Shown: one piece after another, positions 2,293 to 23,806 of the stretch
Layout: each line of letters opens with the position of its first letter
How positions within the stretch are numbered: the first letter of the stretch is position 1
Source of the DNA: a virus
IMG/VR virus record: IMGVR_UViG_3300049793_000244
Coordinates: 1 to 23,892 of that record
Strand: one strand, 5' to 3'
DNA length: 23,892 bases
Program-made: the position numbers and the translations under genes
The notes under the pieces: model-generated
What the model saw: only the letters and a program-made list of their open reading frames with translations
Told to the model about the DNA's origin: nothing
Databases searched by the model: none

Positions 2293-2371
2293 TGGTCAGA
2301 GTGAGACGACTTGCACATCCCTATTTCGGTCTCCAAAACCGATCCACACCTATCTCTGGATTCACACTCTG
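2293..2371 (-). tRNA. tRNA-Pro (UGG), slightly unusual arms, CCA encoded
   Basis: Acceptor CAGAGTG/CACTCTG is seven perfect pairs, followed by A and CCA. The anticodon stem TCGGT/ACCGA holds loop TTTGGAG, so the anticodon is TGG (Pro). The T arm GGATG-TGCAAGT-CGTCT pairs with two G-U wobbles and has TG instead of TT at loop positions 54-55. The D stem is only about three pairs (TCC/GGA), and the usual base 26 is hard to place. It is probably functional but less canonical than its neighbours. Confidence 0.78.
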
Positions 2372-2388
2372 ATAAAAAAATAATAAAA

Positions 2389-2464
2389 TGGAGCCGACTG
2401 TCGGAATCGAACCAACGACCTGCTGTTTACAAAACAGCTGCTCTACCTGCTGAGCTAAGACGGC
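2389..2464 (-). tRNA. tRNA-Thr (UGU), CCA encoded
   Basis: Acceptor GCCGTCT/AGTCGGC has one T-T mismatch at the fifth pair, then T and CCA. The D arm AGCTC..GAGC is canonical, the anticodon stem GCTGT/ACAGC holds loop TTTGTAA (anticodon TGT, Thr ACA), and the T arm is GTTGG-TTCGATT-CCGAC. Confidence 0.93.
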
Positions 2465-22734: not shown

Positions 22735-22744
22735 TGATTAAGTA

Positions 22745-22807
22745 ACTCAACTCCCGAACACGGTTCGATTCCGTGGTTGTGTGGATTTCACAAGAGTTGA
22801 GTCACCA
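22745..22807 (+). ncRNA. tRNA-like three-way junction RNA ending in CCA
   Basis: A 9-bp perfect stem (ACTCAACTC with GAGTTGAGT) closes two hairpins of exactly 5+7+5: CACGG-TTCGATT-CCGTG and TTGTG-TGGATTT-CACAA, the second directly joined to the closing stem as a T arm is in a tRNA. The 3' end reads CACCA. It looks like a tRNA with no D arm, or a T-arm-bearing fragment. The first loop is a classic T loop; as an anticodon loop it would read CGA (Ser). Which role is right is not settled by sequence. Confidence 0.5.
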
Positions 22808-22869
22808 CTTTGGGTCTCGCGGTGTAGAGCGGTGAAAGTCCGTAGGGACACATTATTAAACATAAAACA

Positions 22870-22936
22870 GTCGGATATGTAGGTGCAACTCCTATTCCTC
22901 ACTTGTGAGGGTCGTCTAATAGCACAGGACGCCGGC
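22870..22936 (+). tRNA. Permuted tRNA-like module 1 (3' half precedes 5' half)
   Basis: Order on the DNA: GTCGG (anticodon 3' strand), variable ATAT, T arm GTAGG-TGCAACT-CCTAT, acceptor 3' strand TCCTCAC, then TT, acceptor 5' strand GTGAGGG, TC, D arm GTC-11 bases-GAC, G, and CCGGC (anticodon 5' strand). The acceptor pairs over 7 bp with one G-T, the anticodon stem over 5 bp with one G-T, and each linker has the normal tRNA length. A linear tRNA does not fit, because both acceptor halves and both anticodon-stem halves only pair in the swapped order. No CCA is encoded and only two bases join the halves. The anticodon cannot be read with confidence. Confidence 0.7.
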
Positions 22937-22940
22937 AACA

Positions 22941-23020
22941 AGAGGAAACATTGGTGCAAATCCAGTCTGCGATACCTTCCTTAGAAGCCTCGCGGTCGTC
23001 TAGTAGACCAGGACACCTCT
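22941..23020 (+). tRNA. Permuted tRNA-like module 2 (3' half precedes 5' half)
   Basis: The same swapped order as the module before: AGAGG (anticodon 3' strand), variable AAAC, T arm ATTGG-TGCAAAT-CCAGT, acceptor 3' strand CTGCGAT with ACC, a 12-base link, acceptor 5' strand CTCGCGG, TC, D arm GTC-TAGTAGACCAG-GAC, A, and CCTCT (anticodon 5' strand). The acceptor pairs 6 of 7, the anticodon stem 5 of 5. The link forms its own small hairpin (CTTC-CTTA-GAAG) that extends the acceptor. The bases after CCTCT are CTTTTAT, which would read UUU (Lys) if the whole loop came from the 5' half; this is tentative. Its D arm matches module 1 over 24 bases with 20 identical. Confidence 0.7.
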
Positions 23021-23276
23021 CTTTTATAGTAAAATGCTTTCCTTCGAGTCTATGTGCTATGCCTGGCAGGGTAACACAGTCATGAGAGGGTTGAGTCCAC
23101 AAGGTTCGGGAGCTGCTATAGACCGAATAGAATGAGAAATCCCATTAGCCTCTGGGCGGGCAAACACTTAAATGTGAACTTAAACGTAAAACTGGGTCGC
23201 TCATTCTTTTATTTAAAATTCAAAAGCGCGCCATTGCGACAATGTGAGTGATTACACGGAGTCAGAGTTTGGTAAA
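23021..23276 (+). ncRNA. Remaining transcribed non-coding region with several hairpins
   Basis: No protein gene is visible. Structures seen: TTTTA/TAAAA (23022-23034), TTCGG/CCGAA (23105-23127), a 7-bp GAATGAG/CTCATTC closing helix (23130-23206), CATTG-CGA-CAATG (23232-23244), and a D-arm-like TGAT-TACACGGA-GTCA (23249-23264). GAGAGG at 23084-23089 can also pair with CCTCTC at 23016-23021. No complete tRNA could be built here in either order. It may hold further broken or permuted tRNAs, or another RNA. Confidence 0.4.
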
Positions 23277-23320
23277 CCCAGGCATCCCACCTCTAATCAA
23301 GGTTAGCCTGGGCTTTTTTA
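23277..23320 (+). terminator. Terminator of the RNA region
   Basis: CCCAGGC (23277-23283) pairs with GCCTGGG (23306-23312) around a loop with its own ACCT/AGGT stem; a CTTTTTT run follows. The ribosome-binding site of the next gene (AGGA) begins at the end of the T-run. Confidence 0.78.
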
Positions 23321-23328
23321 GGAAAAAT

Positions 23329-23667
23329 ATGAAACAAGTAATAGTTCTCCGTAAAGACCTGAACATGCGCAAAGGCAAAATGGTAGCTCAAGGCTCTCAT
23401 GCTTGTTTGTACGCATATTTAAAGACTTCAAAAGAGATACGCGATGCTTGGTTTGGCCAAAGACAGACAAAGATTTGCGTTTCCGTAGATTCCGAAGAAG
23501 AACTTTTCGCAATCTATAAAGCGGCTACAGATGCTGGTCTTCCGGCAGTCCTTATTCAGGATGCTGGTTTGACCGAATTTAAAGAGCCTACCTACACAGC
23601 TGTTGGTATTGGCCCATGTGAAGATGACGATGTTAATAAAATTACTGGAAATTTAAAATTATTATGA
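23329..23667 (+). CDS. pth2: Peptidyl-tRNA hydrolase, Pth2 type
   Basis: 112 residues from the ATG at 23329, preceded by AGGAAAA; the in-frame upstream part overlaps the terminator and is unlikely to be translated. The sequence has the Pth2 signature throughout: KQVIVLRKDLNMRKGKMVAQ followed by GSHA, a strand with KICVSVDSEEEL, LPAVLIQDAGLTEFKEPTYT and the end AVGIGP...ITGNLKLL. The enzyme frees tRNA from stalled peptidyl-tRNA. Pth2 is the archaeal/eukaryotic type, also found in some phages, and differs from the bacterial Pth. It lies between a tRNA-like RNA region and tRNA-Ile, which suggests a phage set for keeping its tRNA pool usable. Confidence 0.93.
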   Translation: MKQVIVLRKDLNMRKGKMVAQGSHACLYAYLKTSKEIRDAWFGQRQTKICVSVDSEEELFAIYKAATDAGLPAVLIQDAGLTEFKEPTYTAVGIGPCEDDDVNKITGNLKLL

Positions 23668-23679
23668 TACAATATATAC

Positions 23680-23806
23680 CGGCGGGTAGCTCAGTCTGGT
23701 AGAGCATCAACCTGATACGTTGAAGGTCGTGGAACTTAGAAGTTAGTAGTGGCATAATTAACCATGAAAGCCGTATTAATATGTTCGATCCCCACCCCGC
23801 CGACCA
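23680..23806 (+). tRNA. tRNA-Ile (GAU) with a 50-base insertion in the T stem
   Basis: Acceptor CGGCGGG/CCCGCCG is perfect, followed by A and CCA. The D arm GCTC-AGTCTGGTA-GAGC, anticodon stem TCAAC/GTTGA with loop CTGATAC (anticodon GAT, Ile) and variable AGGTC are canonical. The T stem begins GTGG (23729-23732), then 50 extra bases (23733-23782) precede G-TTCGATC-CCCAC. Removing them restores GTGGG/CCCAC exactly, so the insertion lies between tRNA positions 52 and 53. It is too short for a group I or II intron and codes for nothing obvious. Either it is removed by an unknown process, or the gene is inactive. Confidence 0.88.

Follow-up and report, generated by a model that had tools for sequence, protein, structure and literature searches.

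The stretch of DNA analysed here, which we call the window, is a 23.9-kb IMG/VR fragment (23,892 nucleotides) of a large tailed phage that encodes a major head protein, a tail sheath and a head maturation protease. The protease and trailing homing-endonuclease genes on one side and a peptidyl-tRNA hydrolase gene on the other (Pth2, 23329..23667, plus strand; Pfam PF01981, E 7e-37) enclose about 600 bp without a convincing gene, and this interval houses two tRNA-like modules on the plus strand, at 22870..22936 and 22941..23020. No close DNA relative of the window was found among isolated phages; judged by the capsid protein, Myxococcus phage Mx1 comes nearest among isolates, at 52% identity. 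Both modules recur, in the same place and likewise 4 nt apart, in a 170.6-kb IMG/VR contig (G001, locus L002), the only one among the IMG/VR relatives to carry this exact tandem. Pth2 adjoins the RNA cluster in G001 as well as in the window. An association with Pth2 was considered and set aside: permuted domains lie near this gene in the window, G001, L227 and L251, yet few of 80 Pth2 loci passed the geometric test for such domains. Further downstream in the window is a tRNA-Ile(GAT) with an encoded ACCA (23680-23803, plus strand; Rfam tRNA, 46 bits), whose T arm carries an insertion of about 50 nt between GTGG and GTTCGATC, unusual for a phage; ARAGORN missed it, as it did a probable tRNA-Pro(TGG) whose D arm is odd and whose T loop reads TGCAAGT (2315-2390, minus strand).

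The modules share their interval with other RNA-like elements, all on the plus strand. A D-arm-less tRNA-like element (22745..22803) folds into a 9-bp stem around two elements, a hairpin and a canonical T arm (CACGG TTCGATT CCGTG); no counterpart was found in G001. The element CACTTTGGGTCTCGCGGTGTAGAGCGGTGAAAGTCCGTAGGGACACAT, just upstream of the modules (22806..22860), is 95% identical in G001 and is the best-conserved piece of the non-coding region relative to that contig. Downstream, a structured RNA of about 165 nt (23040-23205) ends in a 3' hairpin followed by TTTTAT; an Rfam search with it gave no match, and its homologue is located at an unlinked G001 site (L006 15392-15556, minus strand), with 78% identity over the matched part (23040-23162). 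The block CCATTGCGA..AGAGTTTGGTAAACCCAGG (23226-23316), with the terminal hairpin CCCAGGC..GCCTGGG-TTTTTT, follows the modules in the window and has its counterpart upstream of them in G001, hence the region has been reshuffled. Could the interval from about 22740 to 23320 encode a single, larger non-coding RNA of the phage that has an activity elsewhere and uses the tRNA-like domains as structural knobs? A structured 600-bp stretch lacking good genes would accord with this idea, as would the conservation of 22806-22860 and 23040-23162. However, the homologue of the latter is 31 kb away in G001 and other blocks are reordered there, so that the elements behave as separate modules; we regard a single larger RNA as unlikely.

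The first-pass annotation had described two tandem circularly permuted tRNA-like modules, and a strict scanner run on both strands returned exactly these two matches in the window. The order it requires is anticodon 3' strand, variable loop, 5-7-5 T arm, acceptor 3' strand and linker, then acceptor 5' strand, 2 nt, D arm, 1 nt and anticodon 5' strand. Module 1 accordingly begins with its anticodon 3' strand (GTCGG, 22870-22874), variable loop (22875-22878), T arm (22879-22895) and acceptor 3' strand (TCCTCAC, 22896-22902); a 2-nt linker (22903-22904) leads into the acceptor 5' strand (GTGAGGG, 22905-22911, then TC), the D arm (22914-22930, then G) and the anticodon 5' strand (CCGGC, 22932-22936). 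The acceptor pairs at 7/7 positions and the anticodon stem at 5/5, although a 6-bp acceptor closed by a CUUG tetraloop is the better reading. In isolation, the minimum-energy fold of module 1 is a permuted four-way cloverleaf. Its G001 orthologue (L002 10141-10199) and covariation support the same assignment. Four nucleotides separate the modules (22937..22940; AACA, ATAC in G001). In module 2 the succession is anticodon 3' strand (AGAGG, 22941-22945), variable loop (AAAC, 22946-22949), T arm (22950-22966), acceptor 3' strand (22967-22973), a 15-nt linker (22974-22988) that forms a 4-bp hairpin of its own (C-UUC-CUUA-GAA-G), acceptor 5' strand (22989-22995, then TC), D arm (22998-23014, then A) and anticodon 5' strand (CCTCT, 23016-23020), with 6/7 and 5/5 pairs; here too an orthologue (L002 10204-10284) and compensating changes accompany the scanner match. 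These stem counts agree with those first reported. Directly 3' of module 2, CTTTTAT (23021..23027), conserved in G001 as CCTTTTAT, is possibly a simple 3' end or an anticodon-loop remnant. The T loops, TGCAACT and TGCAAAT, have G at the expected pseudouridine site U55. Both D loops in the window do lack the usual GG, as had been noticed; GG is present in the D loop of G001 module 2 (AGTTGGGTTA). The module halves look like those of tRNA-Glu.

Might the same bases be explained by a clear linear tRNA? As originally proposed, the halves of each module pair with one another alone, in swapped order, and the linear reading, which joins the 5' half of module 1 to the 3' half of module 2, is unpaired. 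Chance is an improbable source, in line with the initial assessment: a test comparable to the strict scanner, if slightly different from it, gave 3 matches in 8.0 Mb of Markov-shuffled phage DNA, and the tandem recurs in G001 with compensating changes. Scores call for more care. With our covariance model R1, linear tRNA arrays in the window reach up to 42 bits, and models of such a shape match the tandem linear tRNA genes at 2434-2679; the linear array at 2200-2719 outscores the modules with R1, but its stems are mispaired or poorly aligned. Since tandem linear tRNAs can imitate permuted units, the case is built on the swapped stems, the compensating changes and the gene context rather than on scores alone.

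Comparison with G001 is informative in this respect. Across the four modules of the window and G001, 96.6% of cells pair and 11 of the 25 pairs carry a compensating double change, against 1-3 double-changed pairs in a control in which partners were slid. The first-pass annotation had named homologues without such changes as a reason to abandon the permuted fold, and the fold came through this comparison. Between the two versions of module 2, both partners have changed with pairing kept in the anticodon, T, acceptor and linker stems; the linker hairpin reads C-CGC-ACAA-GCG-G in G001, where double changes preserve the stem of the window. Module 1 of G001 retains its anticodon, T and D stems, but all that is left of its acceptor is CC-GAAA-GG. 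Read from these alignments, the compensating double changes, with nearly all stems intact, show selection on the permuted fold. As the acceptor of that module is reduced and its other stems and their pairing are kept, selection acts on the permuted fold and not on a processable acceptor end. It is conceivable that recombination within tandem tRNA-Glu genes left permuted units behind as functionless relics of a tRNA array. Such domains may arise by recombination, the tandem linear tRNAs at 2434-2679 of the window can pass for permuted units, and the halves look tRNA-Glu-like. Nonetheless, 11 compensating double changes and almost all stems intact between two phages make mere relics very unlikely.

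Are the modules tRNA genes? The initial proposal of permuted tRNAs or tRNA mimics was twofold; its terms 'tRNA mimics' and 'circularly permuted tRNA-like' describe the modules well, and the part that finds no support is the notion of genes needing processing and ligation or circularisation. Were the modules circularly permuted tRNA genes in the true sense, the acceptor linker would be cut by RNase P together with 3' enzymes, and joining at the anticodon loop would yield working tRNAs; for module 2 this reading gives CCTCT-CTTTTAT-AGAGG with the anticodon UUU. The full cloverleaf, the pairing of the swapped halves, a candidate loop of 7 nt and the ACC present in both phages after the acceptor strand of module 2 are all compatible with such genes. 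Yet none of the four junctions has a bulge-helix-bulge, the G001 loop, CCTTTTAT, does not have the proper spacing, and RtcB was not found in G001 or the window. A search for the RNA ligase Rnl1 (PF09511) also gave no match, but the control was likewise unmatched, so this absence is uninformative. With two base pairs and a GAAA cap, the acceptor of G001 module 1 could not give rise to an acceptor end, and together with the junctions lacking a bulge-helix-bulge it makes processing and ligation unlikely. Red and green algae and Thermofilum have permuted tRNA genes (PMC3978253) with the same half order and pairing; the modules differ from these genes in having no bulge-helix-bulge, no known ligation and, in one orthologue, an unprocessable acceptor. 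The nearest relatives of the modules, moreover, are Ro60-linked Y RNA tRNA-like domains, which are permuted relative to tRNA without being spliced. We consider permuted tRNA genes rather improbable, and the modules are probably stable tRNA look-alikes, not tRNA genes awaiting splicing. In permuted tmRNA, too, the T arm and the acceptor 3' strand precede the 5' part. A permuted tmRNA with acceptor and coding pieces is nevertheless extremely unlikely, because ARAGORN and Rfam give no tmRNA match, the D and anticodon stems are complete and no tag frame was identified.

The kinship with Y RNAs emerges from members of the phage family. Among 72 loci anchored on the capsid protein, L018 and L032 contain further permuted units, each at the tip of a long hairpin (P1-GGGUCG-P2-GUUAU..unit..P2'-UUAUCC-P1'). 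These units match Rfam YrlA across the full model at a sub-cutoff E of ~1e-6, and on both contigs a TROVE (Ro60) gene adjoins them. Weak YrlA matches in G012 and G040 turned out to be linear tRNA arrays, and GGGTCG was dropped as a genome-wide repeat element owing to a noisy motif search. When loci were anchored on Ro60 instead, 25 of 70 passed the geometric permuted test, with acceptor caps that include GTAA, GCAA and GAAA. A covariance model trained only on the four modules of the window and G001 (R2) has its best matches directly beside Ro60 genes, with E-values that are rough given a short calibration (L118, 5e-11; L159, 6e-11; L030, 1.6e-10; L116, 1e-9); across 998 kb of other loci it gave weak matches only, none comparable to these. 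Conversely, when nine Ro60-adjacent domains served as the training set, the resulting model picked up the window modules at a similarly rough E of ~1e-5, with 21/21 modelled pairs standard. The domains of L116 and L118 resemble the window modules in their tRNA-Glu-like D arm and in GAAAC, but they are carried on a full Y-RNA stem, with flanking helices of 9-10 bp. These results show the fold and its YrlA-type kinship.

Tandem arrays of Y-RNA-like hairpins adjoin Ro60 at L117 (3785-4300), L116 (from 5575) and L019 (3600-4080, minus strand); their permuted tRNA-like tips differ, and some tips are linear tRNA-like or absent. At L030 (3146-3240, minus strand) a linear tRNA with a 6-nt anticodon loop sits within a GAGAGCGG/CCGCTCTC stem and is attached through its acceptor end, not its anticodon end. 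Unannotated matches to the permuted model also lie near annotated Ro-like genes in Mycobacterium phage Sebata (L275 1196-1273) and Gordonia phage Forza (L276 4244-4309). TROVE matches 362 isolated phage records, and phage TROVE proteins are already known, for instance from mycobacteriophages and jumbo phages (PMC7824862). Phage Ro-like ribonucleoproteins of this kind (PMC7824862) resemble the present system in that phage Ro60 genes have permuted domains next to them; in the lineage of the window the RNA domain persists, but G001 yielded no TROVE gene.

How close are the modules to YrlA itself? With YrlA (RF02553; PDB 6CU1) they share the permuted tRNA fold, the closed acceptor end and entry through the anticodon-side stem, and the same domain class occurs in Ro60-linked RNAs of the phage family of the window. 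According to PMC11472068, the tRNA-like domain of the Y RNA in 6CU1 can be superposed on tRNA if its order is circularly permuted. In the window and G001, by contrast, two domains lie 4 nt apart with no linked Ro60, and they have a tRNA-Glu-like D arm (GTCT..GGAC) and an AAAC variable loop; a Y RNA would need neither full five-pair anticodon stems nor the conserved ACC after the acceptor of module 2, both of them tRNA-like details. Neither in the window nor in G001 do the modules have a basal, Ro60-binding stem such as the flanking helix of L116 and L118. The window has no match to Rfam YrlA (RF02553) at E up to 10, and TROVE (PF05731) was found neither in this 23.9-kb fragment nor in the 170.6 kb of G001, a contig as long as the complete phage Mx1 (169.6 kb). 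Because of these three absences we class the modules as an orphan tandem of YrlA-type modules, not as YrlA. Permuted units in tRNA clusters near Pth2 at L227 (G042) and L230 (G044), two places that are near-identical to each other and lie on contigs without TROVE, suggest that this orphan form is not unique.

Based on these observations, we propose, with a probability of roughly three in four, that the modules are phage-encoded YrlA-type tRNA-like domains of a tRNA-Glu-like subclass, an orphan tandem of stable, unspliced mimics. The RNA chain would enter and exit each domain through the anticodon stem while a small loop closes the acceptor stem, and each domain would thereby fold into a stable tRNA L without splicing. 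Once transcribed, as we expect the modules to be, the RNA would stay in one piece, because no junction has a bulge-helix-bulge and one of the acceptors consists of just two pairs and a cap. The capped acceptors (GTAA, GCAA and GAAA at Ro60 loci, and CC-GAAA-GG in module 1 of G001) fit an unprocessed stem. Most likely the intact RNA would not be aminoacylated. A tRNA-recognising protein might bind it, perhaps host PNPase or tRNA-modifying enzymes; for YrlA, PMC8394870 describes the tRNA-like domain and RYPER, with a role in tethering Ro60 to PNPase. Alternatively, the RNA might conceivably compete with a defence nuclease of the host that cuts tRNA. Competition of the tRNA-like domain with an anticodon nuclease has been proposed for YrlA (PMC7790460). 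A more specific version, which we advance only tentatively, is that a Ro60-independent tandem of tRNA-Glu-type permuted mimics, derived from phage Y RNAs, provides a scaffold or decoy to a host factor that recognises tRNA, perhaps a tRNA-cutting defence nuclease.

What are the implications for phage biology? Standard searches for tRNAs and with Rfam overlook phage tRNA mimics of this kind, and a phage 'permuted tRNA' is now linked to Y RNAs. In the family of the window, phage Y RNAs would be arrays mimicking different tRNA types, permuted and linear. Its forms with Ro60, some of them tandem arrays that include linear tRNA-like domains, and those without are natural variants, which could show how the tRNA-like half of a Y RNA behaves alone, including its proposed competition with anticodon nucleases.
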